Below, piece after piece: positions 1,774-10,367 of a DNA stretch of 35,749 bases. The notes below the pieces were generated by a model that had not been told where the DNA came from, made no database searches, and saw only the letters and a program-made list of their open reading frames with translations. Made by a program: the position numbers and the translations under genes. The DNA lies in NCBI GenBank assembly GCA_947574255.1, contig CANPJT010000007.1:1-35749 (forward strand). Reading direction: 5' to 3'. Numbering within the stretch: position 1 is the stretch's first letter; each line of letters opens with the position of its first letter. This DNA comes from an uncultured Mycoplasmatota bacterium. GTDB lineage: Bacteria; Bacillota_I; Bacilli_A; RF39; UBA660.

Positions 1774-2340
1774 CTAAATTATATTATCAACCAATCCATA
1801 TTGTAATGCTTCATTTGAAGATAACCAATAATCTCTATTAGTATCATTTGAAATTTTTTCTACAGATTGTCCTGTATTTTTTGATAAAATAGACTTAGTC
1901 TTTTCATTCATTTTTATTGCATGTTGCAAGTCTATAGTCATATCTGTAACAGTTCCACTAGTTCCAGCACTTGCTTGATGAATTAAAATTTCACTATTTT
2001 TAAGAGCATATCTTTTTCCTTTAGTTCCACTAGACAAAATAACAGAAGCCATACTTGCACAACATCCAATACAAACTGTTGAGACATCACAACTAATAAA
2101 ATTCATAGTATCATATATTGCTAATCCGTCCATAACACTACCACCAGGTGAATTAATATACATTGTTATATCTGCATTAGGATCTTCTGCTTGTAGGTGA
2201 AGTAATTGTGCCACGACAATATTAGCAACATTACTATTTATTTCACCATTTAAAAATATAATTCTTTCTTTTAATAATCTTGAATATATATCATAAGTTT
2301 TTTCGCCGTTTTCAGTTTGTTGTATTACATAAGGTATCAT
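1774..2340 (-). CDS. clpP-like: ClpP-type serine protease subunit, partner of adjacent AAA+ protein
   Basis: A 188-residue ClpP-family peptidase, close to the usual ~195 residues. The catalytic triad is intact: Ser96 in GCCASMAS, His121 in ILIHQ and Asp170 in DTNRD. The oxyanion region INSPGGSV is present. ClpP forms a double heptameric chamber and needs an AAA+ unfoldase to feed it. The nucleophile block is unusual: GCCASMAS where housekeeping ClpP has GQAASMGA. The gene starts at the base after the TAA of the AAA+ gene (TAAATG), so the two are coupled and probably act together. No clpX, clpA or clpC is adjacent. Likely a specialised paralogue rather than the housekeeping copy; whether another clpP exists cannot be seen here. 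A GGGAGTGA/TCACTTCC stem lies just after the stop without a U run. Confidence 0.88.
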
Positions 2341-4617
2341 TTAAACATCTCCATTCTTTTGGATAAAGCCAAAAGTAGTATTATTTTTAACTTTATCATT
2401 CAATATTTCTTTTTCATCTATATCTTCTTTTGTAATTGTTAAAATATCTTTATTAATATTCAAATAAACATTTTCTGCATGTTTCATCAATAATTTTGTT
2501 GATAATTTATCTATATATCGAGCATTACCAAAATTCTTTTCTATCATGATTTTATCTAAAATTTTATCAATTCTAGATATCGCTTCATCATCAATAACAA
2601 TATTCTGTTTTTTCATTTTAACAATCAAAATTTTAATTAATTGTTCTTTGCTATAATCATCAAAATTTATAAAAGTTGCTATTCTTGATTTTAAACCACT
2701 ATTTAAATTCAATAAATTATCCATTAAATTAGAATAACCTGCAAATATTACAATATTTTTAGAGCTTTCCATATATTTCAATAATTCAATTAAAGCTTCT
2801 TTAAAATATTCTCCATCATTCAAAAATAAATAAGCCTCATCAATAAATAGTATTCCATCTTTAGCCTGATTCAATATTTCTTTAGTTTTTGTTTTTGTTT
2901 GTCCTTCATAATCTGCAACCAAATCATTAGGAGTTATTTCAATAAATTTATCTTCACTAATATAATTCAGAGAATATAATATCTTTTCAATTATTTTAGC
3001 TACAGTTGTTTTTCCTGTTCCAGAATTACCAGTTAAAAATAAGTTAAAATACTGATTATCAATCTTTGCTATATTATTTGTCTCATTTCTAAATTTCCAA
3101 AATGCAATTAATTTGTTAACTTGTTTTTTTACATCGTCTAAACCAATTAAACTATTTAAATCATTAATTGATTTATTTATAATATCCTTTTGATTTATAC
3201 TAGGAAATGACTCTATATTAAATTCTGAAAGTTCATTTTCCAAAACATATTTTAACATTTTAGTATATAAATTATTTAAAAATTTTTCGTTTTTTAATTT
3301 AGATTTTTCAACTAATGATTTTATTATTATTTTAGCTTCAATAGGATTTAAAGAAATAGTATAATTTGTGATGCTAAGTTTTGAAATTAATAAATCATAC
3401 ATTGTATCAATACTATAATCTTCACATTTAAATACAAAAGAAAATTTATCCATTAATTCATTTTCTTTATTAATAATATCTAATGTTTTATTTATATCAC
3501 CACATAAAATAATTCCATAATACTTTTTCAAGTTAATAAGTGTATCTATAATATTTAGTTTAAGTTGTACATCATAGTCTTCAATAGCATCAAAATTATT
3601 AATTAATAAAAAATTATAGTCTTTAATTTTTTCATTTAATTTTTTATCATTTTTATCAAAAAAATCCATATTATTTTTTATATCAAGTTCAAGCATATTT
3701 AATTTCTGGTTGCTTCCAATATTTTCTCTAAAGAGATTTTTTATTATATTTAACAAATAATTTTTTTCTTTTGTATCGCTTCCTAAAAGAAGTATATTAT
3801 AAGCTAAATCAGAATTAAAATTATTATCATTTTTCAATGATTCATAATTAGATAATAAATTATTTAGTTTTTTAAATTCTTTAATGTTCTCAATACTTAA
3901 AAATTCATTTATTTCATTAGATTGCTCTTTTTTAGAATCTATCTCAAATGCTAAATCCAACTCTTCTTTTGATGCACCTAAATAAAGATTTTCACTTCCT
4001 AACTCTTTAGAAAAACTACAAGATAATAACATTCTTTTTATAAGACTGTTCATTGTTGAGTTACAAAATGTATTTAAAGTAATGTTAATACATAAAGAAT
4101 TAATTATTAAAAAATATTCATAAAAGGTTTTGTTATCTTTTTGAACATAAAGTTCATATAATTTACAATTAGCATTTGTTTCTTGATTTTTACTTATAAC
4201 ATTAATAAACTTGTATTTAGATACTAACTTATCATTAATATATTTATCAATTAAATTGTTAAATAATTCATTATCTAAAAAGTTTCTATTATGTTCACAA
4301 CTAAAACTAAAAGTGAATTCTTTTATTATTTGAGTTTGCTCAACATTAGTTATATAACTATCTATATCATTACATAGAGAATTAATTCTTTCATGTATAT
4401 CATCTATTTTATTATATTCATCATAATCTAATGATTTTATGTTATGGGAGTAATATTTCAATTTAAAGCAATCTTCATTATTTTGAATAACTTCAACACT
4501 AGGAGAAAAAATTCTAAAATATAATTTTAAATTATCATGTTTAATATATGGTTGCTTAATTTGTAAATCATTAATTGCCTTATTTAATTTATTTGTTTTT
4601 TCAATAAAATCACTCAA
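2341..4617 (-). CDS. Two-module AAA+ ATPase, CbxX/SpoVK type, coupled to ClpP
   Basis: A protein of about 760 residues (numbered from the GTG at 4626). Residues 1-260 match no domain I know. Residues ~275-430 look like a dead AAA+ module: GSDTKEKN stands where Walker A should be and FLLINNFDAI where Walker B should be. Residues ~490-735 are an intact CbxX/SpoVK-type AAA+ module, with lead-in LIGLDDVKKQV, Walker A GNSGTGKTT (533-541), pore-loop-like VADYEGQT, Walker B ILFIDE (592-597), sensor FAGYSN, arginine-finger region GLKSRIATF and sensor-2 NFGNARYI. The C-terminal tail carries TFGFIQKNGDV; FGF (752-754) resembles the ClpP-docking IGF/L tripeptide of ClpX/ClpA, though at the tail rather than in an internal loop. 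The TTG at 4617 is favoured because AGGTGG lies 5 bases upstream. The role as a ClpP unfoldase is inferred from coupling. Confidence 0.8.
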   Translation of the reverse strand: MSDFIEKTNKLNKAINDLQIKQPYIKHDNLKLYFRIFSPSVEVIQNNEDCFKLKYYSHNIKSLDYDEYNKIDDIHERINSLCNDIDSYITNVEQTQIIKEFTFSFSCEHNRNFLDNELFNNLIDKYINDKLVSKYKFINVISKNQETNANCKLYELYVQKDNKTFYEYFLIINSLCINITLNTFCNSTMNSLIKRMLLSCSFSKELGSENLYLGASKEELDLAFEIDSKKEQSNEINEFLSIENIKEFKKLNNLLSNYESLKNDNNFNSDLAYNILLLGSDTKEKNYLLNIIKNLFRENIGSNQKLNMLELDIKNNMDFFDKNDKKLNEKIKDYNFLLINNFDAIEDYDVQLKLNIIDTLINLKKYYGIILCGDINKTLDIINKENELMDKFSFVFKCEDYSIDTMYDLLISKLSITNYTISLNPIEAKIIIKSLVEKSKLKNEKFLNNLYTKMLKYVLENELSEFNIESFPSINQKDIINKSINDLNSLIGLDDVKKQVNKLIAFWKFRNETNNIAKIDNQYFNLFLTGNSGTGKTTVAKIIEKILYSLNYISEDKFIEITPNDLVADYEGQTKTKTKEILNQAKDGILFIDEAYLFLNDGEYFKEALIELLKYMESSKNIVIFAGYSNLMDNLLNLNSGLKSRIATFINFDDYSKEQLIKILIVKMKKQNIVIDDEAISRIDKILDKIMIEKNFGNARYIDKLSTKLLMKHAENVYLNINKDILTITKEDIDEKEILNDKVKNNTTFGFIQKNGDV

Positions 4618-4686
4618 AAATTCCACCTACTTTTATATTAATTTTATCATAATTTATCAAATAAAGATGTATTTTAAGCAAGATAA

Positions 4687-7329: not shown

Positions 7330-9804
7330 CTACCAAGAGCCTCCTCCTCCTCCACCTAATCCGCCTCCTGATAATCCACCACCAGAAGATACTTTTCCTG
7401 ATGATCCTCTATCTGAATCACTAGATGGACTTGATGACATTACACTTTGGGCTGTTAACATAGTAGAATTCATAAATAATCCAAATGATACTATATCAAA
7501 AGAATTAGGGCTATCATACCAAGATGGTGCTTGAAGTAATATTGTTTCAAATTTTTTAATCCATTTATCTGATATTCCTAAAACATAAGTATAAGGTAAA
7601 ATATTATAAAAATATGTTGGATCTTGCATAATCATTGCTTCCAATTTTTCCTTCTCTGCAGTTTCAAGGAAATTTTTAAAGCCTTTTAATTTACCAAGCA
7701 TTTCATTACCATATGCTGTTCTTTTTGGAAGATATTTAAAACAAATAATCATACCCAAAACACATAATAGACCAACTATATATTCAATCAAATATATTGG
7801 ATATTGTACTAAAGCTGGTAAAACTATAAAAGTCCATGGAACTCCTCCAAAACTTAATCCCCAAATTAATACAATTATTTTAAGAAAAATTGGTATTTTA
7901 GCAAATAACATACCAAATAATACTGAAAAACCAATACTAGGAAATAAAAGTGCTACAATCAACAATCTCGATTCACCATATGCTAAAATAGGTGGTATAG
8001 TTATTAAACAATATGTGACAATTATCATTAAAATAATAAATACTGAATTACCATGTATAGACTTTTCAAATAATTTATTTTTATTTTCTTTATTATTTAT
8101 ATTTAATAATATCCGACTCATAGTAATATAAAAATTATCATATAAATCCATCGAAGTAACTTCATTTGGATTATTGCTGGAGATTCCAGAAGTTTTATTA
8201 TGCAATAAAGTAAATGATGAATTTTTTGTAAATAGACCATTTAAAAATAATTGCTCATTTATATTATTTCCATCATATTCTTTTAATTTAGTTATTTTAA
8301 AACCTTGTGATTTTGAAACTAAAGATTCATCTTTAGTTTCAGTAATTTTTATATATCCTTTATTTGTTAAATATATAAGCAATGAAACAACATCTTTATC
8401 TTCGGCCTTACCTTTATATAAAAATCCTACTTCTAAACTATTAAAACCTTGCGGGGGATAGAACTCAACAGTCTCTACAACTTGTCCATCACGACCAAAT
8501 TTATACCATAAATATATTGATATTCCTAAAAATATAATAGGAATTAAAAACAATATATAATCCATAATATTTATATTAAAACCTGCTCCAACAAAATAAC
8601 CTTCAGGCAACTCTAATCTAACTGTTAGTGCTTCACCAGAATTAAGCGTTCCATTATATTTACCATTGATAACATTTCCCTCAACATTATAAGTTACTTT
8701 TGAAGAATCTATAGACCCACTAGATCCACTAGAAAAACCAAGTTTTGATGACTCAAATTCTTTTGGCATTACAATAGTAAATGTTATATTACTAATGCTT
8801 GTATCCCAATCATTTCCAATTAGATTAAAGTACAATTCATCGTACTCTTTTCTTGTATCTTTTCCTAAATTATATAAATAACTAATTAAATAATCCTTTT
8901 GACCTGTTAAAGTATAATTAGCATCGCCAATTTTTATAACCGTATTTCCATTATCTGTAAATAAAGAATAATTATCATTAACCTTTATATTACTAATTTG
9001 AGCACGATTTTTAGATATTGTTCCATCTAACCTTTTTACTTCTTTTTTTAATGGTATCTTTCTAAATATACCATGCTTTTCAATATTAAAATAAGCTCCT
9101 ATCTTTTCTGTTATATTTAAAGTATTATTTTCGTTAACAACGATATTTATATCGTAACTATTTAAAATATATTCTGAATTGCCATTATAAATTAATGAGT
9201 TATGATAATTATTAGCATCACTATTTTTATTAACTTTATCTATTGGAATAGCAGTCATTTCTATTGTGTTAAAATCACTTATATCATCTAAACCATTTTG
9301 ATTTAATTTAGTACTGTTATTATACAAATAATTATCTGCTAATTCTTTTGTTGATGGTTCTATAAACAATTTATAATATTTTATTTCAGATAATTTATAG
9401 TTTTTATATAATGTTGATTGTTCTAAAAAACTGCTAAAATAACTACCTGTAGATAAATCAGATTGAGAATATAATTTATGCCACATTCCATTATAACCAT
9501 CTGTTGCACCAATTTCTTCTTTGTTTGAGTTGTAGTAATATACAACATAGTGATAATAATACATATTATCAACTTTTCTAACTGCCTCTCCTGTAATAGC
9601 AGATGATTTTTCAGGAGTACCATTTGAAAATACTGTATATTCTAAATCAATTGTAAATTCATCCGTAGAGAATTCTACTGAATCTTCTAAATTAACATAA
9701 TCACTTTCATAACTTAAAGCATTTACTTTTGAGGGAATAATGAACAATAATGATACTAAGTTAAATATTATAAAAAAACTAAATTTATTTATATTTCTTT
9801 TCAT
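7330..9804 (-). CDS. DUF2207 domain membrane protein with Gly-rich tail
   Basis: A protein of about 824 residues. It has an N-terminal signal peptide (FFIIFNLVSLLFIIPSKVNA), a long extracellular part, and a DUF2207 domain at roughly residues 215-400 with the typical NITEKIGAYFN and GIFRKIPL segments. A transmembrane helix lies near residue 415 (YILFLIPIIFLGISIYLWY), then a cytoplasmic part, then further membrane helices at ~590-690. The extreme C-terminus is the Ser/Gly-rich tail GGGLSGGGLGGGGGGSW, typical of this family. DUF2207 proteins usually sit beside lemA, as here; the pair is thought to act at the envelope but its biochemical role is not known. I chose ATG 9804, with GGAG 7 bases upstream, over ATG 9816, which has none. 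Confidence 0.85.
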   Translation of the reverse strand: MKRNINKFSFFIIFNLVSLLFIIPSKVNALSYESDYVNLEDSVEFSTDEFTIDLEYTVFSNGTPEKSSAITGEAVRKVDNMYYYHYVVYYYNSNKEEIGATDGYNGMWHKLYSQSDLSTGSYFSSFLEQSTLYKNYKLSEIKYYKLFIEPSTKELADNYLYNNSTKLNQNGLDDISDFNTIEMTAIPIDKVNKNSDANNYHNSLIYNGNSEYILNSYDINIVVNENNTLNITEKIGAYFNIEKHGIFRKIPLKKEVKRLDGTISKNRAQISNIKVNDNYSLFTDNGNTVIKIGDANYTLTGQKDYLISYLYNLGKDTRKEYDELYFNLIGNDWDTSISNITFTIVMPKEFESSKLGFSSGSSGSIDSSKVTYNVEGNVINGKYNGTLNSGEALTVRLELPEGYFVGAGFNINIMDYILFLIPIIFLGISIYLWYKFGRDGQVVETVEFYPPQGFNSLEVGFLYKGKAEDKDVVSLLIYLTNKGYIKITETKDESLVSKSQGFKITKLKEYDGNNINEQLFLNGLFTKNSSFTLLHNKTSGISSNNPNEVTSMDLYDNFYITMSRILLNINNKENKNKLFEKSIHGNSVFIILMIIVTYCLITIPPILAYGESRLLIVALLFPSIGFSVLFGMLFAKIPIFLKIIVLIWGLSFGGVPWTFIVLPALVQYPIYLIEYIVGLLCVLGMIICFKYLPKRTAYGNEMLGKLKGFKNFLETAEKEKLEAMIMQDPTYFYNILPYTYVLGISDKWIKKFETILLQAPSWYDSPNSFDIVSFGLFMNSTMLTAQSVMSSSPSSDSDRGSSGKVSSGGGLSGGGLGGGGGGSW

Positions 9805-9818
9805 TACATTCTCCATAA

Positions 9819-10367
9819 TTATAATTCAATTTTTACATTTGCTTTTTCATTTGCATTTGCTTCAAACATTGTTTTTGATTTATAACCAAATAATATTGCA
9901 AAAATATTACTTGGGAACATTTCAACTTTATTATCATAAATTCTCACAACACCATTATAATACTTTCTCGAATTAGCAATATCGTCTTCAATCTTTGTTA
10001 ATTGTTTACTTAAATCTTTAAAATTTTCATTTGCTTTTAAATCTGGATAAGCTTCGGCTAAAACCATAATTTCGCTAATACCACTAGATATCTGTTCATT
10101 TGTTTTGATTTTTTCATCATCGGACATTTTATCATAAACACTATTCCGTAAATTTATAATTTCTTTTAAAGTATCTTTTTCAAGTTTAGCATATCCTTTT
10201 ACTGATTCTACAATATTAGGAATTAAATCCCATCTTTTTTTAAGATAAACATCCATAGTAGAAAAAGCTTCTTTTATTTTATTATTTAATTTTACAAAAC
10301 TATTATATAAAACAAAAGCATAAATAAAAATTAAAACAATAATTGTAATAATAATGTAAACCCACAT
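9819..10367 (-). CDS. lemA: LemA family protein
   Basis: A 182-residue LemA protein of normal family length. It has a single N-terminal transmembrane anchor (YIIITIIVLIFIYAFVLY) with a very short outside end, then the helical LemA core with the hallmark KKRWDLIPNIVESVKGY and the later LAEAYPDLKANENF and VEMFPSNIFAILFGY segments. A strong ribosome site (AGAGGTGA) lies 5-6 bases before the ATG. It is the first gene of the lemA, DUF2207, zinc-ribbon set. The AT-rich region upstream contains a TATAAT at 10381-10386 but no convincing -35 box. Confidence 0.92.
   Translation of the reverse strand: MWVYIIITIIVLIFIYAFVLYNSFVKLNNKIKEAFSTMDVYLKKRWDLIPNIVESVKGYAKLEKDTLKEIINLRNSVYDKMSDDEKIKTNEQISSGISEIMVLAEAYPDLKANENFKDLSKQLTKIEDDIANSRKYYNGVVRIYDNKVEMFPSNIFAILFGYKSKTMFEANANEKANVKIEL

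Follow-up and report, generated by a model that had tools for sequence, protein, structure and literature searches.

The two adjoining genes described here probably specify a Clp-like AAA+ protease, in which a CbbX-type unfoldase docks on ClpP via its C-terminal tail. Judged from sequence, the pair would be an AAA+/ClpP protease variant in which both the motor family and the position of docking are new. Both genes lie on the minus strand of a 35,749-nucleotide stretch of DNA (the window), which is contig C7 of an 838-kb assembly, 74% complete, of a small AT-rich genome. A CbbX/SpoVK-type AAA+ protein of 761 aa with a GTG start is encoded at 2341..4626, and clpP, encoding a complete ClpP peptidase of 188 aa, occupies 1774..2340. 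The TAA stop of the AAA+ gene directly abuts the clpP ATG, as an earlier reading made from the letters alone (the sequence-only reading) had described. This 74%-complete assembly yielded no further ClpP, and two queries found no ClpX-like protein in it; at that level of completeness the genome may have a ClpX or a housekeeping ClpP that the assembly lacks. The window AAA+ protein was not found in other genomes of the same genus. Elsewhere in the window (7330-10367) a LemA gene is followed by a gene for a DUF2207 membrane protein whose tail is Gly-rich, and this pairing is common.

The AAA+ protein can be divided into an N-terminal region, two AAA modules and a tail, all given here by minus-strand coordinates. 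The N-terminal region (residues 1-245; 3892..4626) belongs to no recognised family, is modelled with low confidence, and is presumed to be the substrate- or adaptor-binding part. The first module (D1, residues about 250-441; 3304..3879) folds as alpha/beta, with GSDTKEKN at the place of the P-loop and LLINNFD at that of Walker B; because both motifs are degenerate, D1 looks inactive. The second module (D2, residues about 480-745; 2392..3189) keeps Walker A (GNSGTGKTT), Walker B (FIDEAY), the pore-loop aromatic (Tyr573, within DYEGQT), the Ser-Arg of the Arg-finger region (Arg648) and a GNxR sensor-2 (Arg703). These motor motifs, the pore-loop Tyr included, are invariant across 21 sequences, so D2 should hydrolyse ATP and pull on polypeptide. 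The layout originally proposed, an inactive first module followed by an intact second one, is thus borne out.

D2 scores above the Pfam cut-offs for PF00004 (52.5 bits) and PF17866 (AAA_lid_6; 29.3 bits). Its matches to SpoVK (TIGR02881; E=9e-51, 172 bits) and CbbX (TIGR02880; E=8e-48, 163 bits) stay below the equivalog cut-offs of 423 and 459, respectively. The solved structures nearest to D2 are CbbX and EccA1, and Foldseek on the AlphaFold2 model of the AAA+ protein ranks CbbX first. The Pfam scan of the protein gave no match to PF10431 (ClpB_D2-small, the Hsp100 mark), in agreement with the earlier placement of this partner outside Hsp100. An internal IGF/L loop was not found in an AAA module; the conserved tripeptide stands at the C-terminus. 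This tripeptide, FGF (residues 752-754; 2365..2373), is the proposed ClpP docking motif and falls within the last 16 residues, which are disordered in the model (pLDDT<50). The C-terminus reads ...FGFIQKNGDV, and the HbYX motif of proteasome motors is absent from it. A better model was obtained for a Clostridia homologue, L165 (mean pLDDT 81), in which a disordered tail follows an N-domain, D1 and D2; Foldseek matches it to CbbX and Cdc48/p97, and as modelled its overall plan appears like that of two-ring unfoldases.

The window ClpP matches Pfam CLP_protease (PF00574) with 252 bits against a cut-off of 20.2 (E=4e-75), scores above the NCBIfam PRK00277 cut-off and shares 52-59% identity with most of the class's housekeeping ClpPs. 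Its triad, Ser96/His121/Asp170, is kept, as had been noted from the sequence, and corresponds to S97/H122/D171 of mature E. coli ClpP. The nucleophile block had been called altered, a view that we dropped after comparison with housekeeping ClpPs, where the Ala positions can likewise hold Cys (e.g., GICASMGAF) as ordinary variation. The real change is a 15-letter segment after the catalytic His, in place of IHQPLGGAQGQATDI, and this segment is also altered in the ClpP of G090, a genome from another family of the class, and in a small related ClpP clade. We take the post-His segment to sit at the ring-ring contact, and its alteration could stop ClpPs of the window/G090 clade from mixing with other ClpPs. 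By sequence, most of 14 apical cleft positions stay hydrophobic in the window ClpP; two depart from the E. coli residues (Phe49 to His and Tyr60 to Thr), and position 60 is variable among housekeeping copies too.

Clp-ATPases engage ClpP at its hydrophobic pockets through an (L/I/V)-G-(F/L) tripeptide (PMC8745299), and HslU docks by its C-terminal tail (PMC4106860). A single-sequence scan of the window AAA+ protein against 84,980 genomes gave no match, and retrieval of homologues needed an alignment query. The resulting sample holds 167 unique CbbX/SpoVK-type AAA+ proteins, a mix of several searches and an uneven sample of bacteria. An [I/Y/F/M/V]GF tail is present in 38 of the 167 and missing from the other 129. 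All 38 tailed proteins exceed 450 aa and come from Firmicutes/Clostridia (Bacillota), while none of the short SpoVK/CbbX proteins in the sample has a GF tail. The residue before GF is I in 28, Y in four, F in three, M in two and V in one; in most of these proteins the tripeptide is preceded by Lys, Arg or Thr. The protein ends exactly in GF in 13 of 38, and at most four residues follow in 37 of 38. With FGF and seven residues after it, the window protein is the least typical tailed member. In a 19-sequence alignment the G and F are invariant, though the preceding linker has diverged. Several tailed proteins (L169, L170 and L179) were retrieved by matches that exclude the tail, which argues that the tail is not a mere artefact of the query. 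As a background, such endings occur in 17 of 1288 other ORFs at these loci, and about 9 of these 17 themselves adjoin clpP paralogues. The FGF tail singled out at the start therefore deserved notice, since such an ending is conserved over a long CbbX-type subfamily of 38 proteins. A single origin of the tail is unsupported: the AAA tree, with long branches and unsure placements, needs five changes, at least three of them forced. G126 also encodes, close to its tailed AAA+ protein, a 519-aa protein ending in ...SKRGIGF (L105:1890-3449).

Pairing with clpP was surveyed in 100 related genomes, in 395 from the class and in 341 from a Clostridia class, some of the MAGs among them being incomplete. 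G090 carries an AAA+/ClpP pair 12 bp apart, and its AAA+ protein ends in ...STKFGF. In G242 and G195 the AAA+ gene is followed by two YbjN-like genes and then a second ClpP, and in the Clostridia genomes G788 and G563 by ClpP at about 117 and 24 bp, respectively. A same-strand clpP gene at most 2 kb downstream accompanies 6 of 38 tailed versus 0 of 129 untailed proteins (Fisher p=1.0e-4), or 5 of 37 tailed with the window left out (p=4e-4); retrieval of the linked loci other than the window was by similarity of the AAA+ protein and did not use ClpP. Adjacency is nevertheless the minority state, 32 of the 38 tailed genes being without clpP within 2 kb in the available sequence. The notion of a dedicated pair thus holds for some loci and fails as a general rule. 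The sequence-only reading had itself named a majority of homologues without neighbouring clpP as evidence against it, and this is what was found for adjacency; it does not extend to docking, as all checked genomes with tailed proteins have ClpP. Tailed AAA+ proteins not beside clpP probably use a ClpP encoded elsewhere.

The ClpP tree groups the window and G090 copies with unpaired copies of related genomes in a supported clade (98/98), and the ClpPs of G242/G195 and G788/G563 fall apart from it. A single lineage of AAA-linked ClpPs was rejected, since the tree needs four changes. At least three of these are forced, so the linkage arose or was kept more than once. The paired ClpPs represent at least three independent lineages, and directly upstream of clpP only tailed AAA+ proteins are found. 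Second ClpPs of the window/G090 type occur in related genomes with no AAA+ neighbour (L054:5495-6130, L055:5652-6242, L056:900-1466 and L269:6018-6632). A check of the extra ClpPs in G004, G012 and G058 showed no AAA+ gene beside them.

Whole genomes were also compared for the presence of ClpP. In the class sample ClpP was found in 160 of 395 genomes, yet in 7 of 7 with a tailed AAA+ protein (hypergeometric p=0.002, kinship uncorrected), and in 23 of 38 genomes with untailed relatives. The 10 of 10 Clostridia genomes with tailed AAA+ proteins that have ClpP add little, as ClpP is expected there. In G090, which is 97% complete, the sole ClpP is the AAA-linked copy and no ClpX, ClpA or ClpC was found. 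The only PF10431 protein of this genome is a ClpB, which has IGI where Hsp100 partners carry the loop, and a ClpB-ClpP pair is possibly formed there. In relatives from the window's family, ClpX-like proteins (L066:3216-4931 and L067:2725-4773) have diverged strongly and carry long N-terminal extensions; one of them has SIGT in place of the expected IGF motif.

From gene order, family membership, intact catalytic motifs, the conserved tail and the association with ClpP, all established by computation, we infer the following machine. The CbbX/SpoVK-type AAA+ protein would form hexamers powered by the second module only. Its N-terminal region would bind substrates, and the pore-loop tyrosine would unfold them and thread them into the ClpP barrel for degradation. 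ClpX docks in the hydrophobic pockets of ClpP by IGF. Here the flexible (I/F/Y)GF tail of each subunit would insert into the hydrophobic clefts between ClpP subunits, replacing the internal IGF loop of ClpX/ClpA/ClpC and resembling the HslU tail on HslV. In the window genome and G090 the motor would work with the co-encoded, diverged ClpP, whose altered post-His segment may bar ring mixing with a housekeeping ClpP and so keep the rings segregated. The same AAA+ family in most other Firmicutes would use a ClpP encoded elsewhere. The YbjN-like proteins encoded downstream in several operons could be adaptors.

The same observations can be read in other ways. The AAA+ protein could be a SpoVK/CbbX-like remodelling chaperone that works alone, with clpP adjacent by chance or by co-regulation, for instance if both are stress genes. 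CbbX itself is a Rubisco activase and is not known to partner a protease, tail-less relatives adjoin TelA-like genes or stand alone and are never beside clpP, and most tailed members likewise have no clpP neighbour. We nonetheless regard this explanation as unlikely, since an adjacency seen in three lineages and restricted to tailed members is improbable by chance (p about 1e-4), the conserved tail carries the tripeptide used for docking on ClpP, and the sole ClpP of G090 has no other ATPase partner that we found, ClpB possibly excepted. The TelA-like neighbours, identified by eye at L004, L005 and L011, suggest that a separate, tail-less branch of the family works with another partner, and the tail of the long branch could bind something other than ClpP. 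A quite improbable variant has the AAA+ protein bind ClpP by its tail as a regulator or adaptor that delivers or withholds substrates, or gates the barrel, with no threading. One dead AAA module would suit such a role, and so would the small YbjN-like proteins that accompany several homologues, a hint of a multi-part regulator; other ClpP operons, moreover, have a Sel1-like protein with a similar tail and no recognised ATPase domain. The second module, however, lacks none of the motifs of an active translocating motor, its pore-loop Tyr is invariant, and CbbX-type motors pull on polypeptides.

A role in defence, or as a toxin-like protease system activated on infection, had also been suggested, and we consider it very improbable. 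The distribution is patchy, the pair was not found in sister species, and a reduced genome has kept it. Against this, PADLOC gave weak, generic AAA matches only (IetA, E=4e-6; TRIP13, 1e-5), no defence genes were recognised beside the pair within the window, and phage matches cover the AAA part only. No support was found for a phage or plasmid origin of the pair.

Similar tails are found on proteins of another kind that also neighbour ClpP. At nine loci (L263-L268 and L270-L272; e.g., L263:5518-9375 and L272:5625-9704) ClpP paralogues, some in tandem, lie with a VirD4/TraG-like ATPase (PF02534, PF12696) and a Sel1-like protein of 300-560 aa that ends in IGF, LGF or YGFG, the tail being present in 9 of 9. 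The extra ClpPs of G126, G288, G265, G290, G331 and G396 sit with such Sel1-like and TraG-like genes. It is possible that these loci represent another non-Hsp100 ClpP system. One ClpP of a tandem pair (L271:6677-7219) has G and N in place of the catalytic Ser and His; loss of catalytic residues in one ClpP occurs in other heteromeric ClpP systems.

Returning to the tail-docked protease, we lean, with less assurance than for the gene pair itself, towards regarding long IGF-tailed CbbX-type AAA+ proteins as a separate, widespread class of Firmicutes ClpP unfoldases that docks by a tail and not by a loop. Since similar IGF/LGF/YGF tails are present on the Sel1-like proteins that accompany clpP paralogues and VirD4/TraG-like ATPases, docking on ClpP by a tail may have evolved more than once. 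The suggestion that this is an undescribed protease survives in its core of a non-Hsp100 motor, a tail and a link to ClpP, now reaching beyond the original locus, and was given up as regards general dedication, the nucleophile and defence. In the open-access literature we found no paper linking a CbbX/CbxX/SpoVK AAA+ protein to ClpP; by title and abstract, co-mention of CbbX or SpoVK with ClpP is incidental, and none was found for CbxX. If correct, the proposal would widen the Clp protease family by a motor of a different AAA+ branch, with a convergent docking tripeptide moved to the C-terminus. It would also explain ClpP in a genome such as G090, where no ClpX or ClpC was found, and a large family of AAA+ proteins from gut Firmicutes, as yet unnamed, would gain a function. 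ADEP-type antibiotics occupy the ClpP pockets used by the docking tripeptide, and there would be extra partners to weigh when such antibiotics target ClpP.

The ClpP motors known to us are Hsp100 proteins. With ClpXP, ClpAP and ClpCP the system shares a ClpP peptidase with an intact triad, an AAA+ motor with a pore-loop aromatic, and an (L/I/V)-G-(F/L)-type tripeptide. It differs in that their motor is an Hsp100 protein with ClpB_D2-small, whereas here it is of the CbbX/SpoVK branch with AAA_lid_6, and in that their tripeptide lies in an internal loop and here at the C-terminus. Docking of a C-terminal tail of the motor into the peptidase, as proposed here, is shared with HslUV; HslV, however, is a threonine peptidase, and HslU is an Hsp100 protein with an I-domain and a tail that is not IGF. 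The second module is homologous to CbbX, SpoVK and EccA (32-33% identity to CbbX, Foldseek E about 1e-20), none of which, to our knowledge, is a protease partner. SpoVK and CbbX differ in their length of about 300 aa and in having no GF tail, and in our sample they never occur beside clpP. Proteasome motors of the PAN/Mpa/Cdc48 type are likewise non-Hsp100 motors that dock by a C-terminal motif, as this one would, but theirs is HbYX at the extreme C-terminus and their peptidase is the 20S proteasome.
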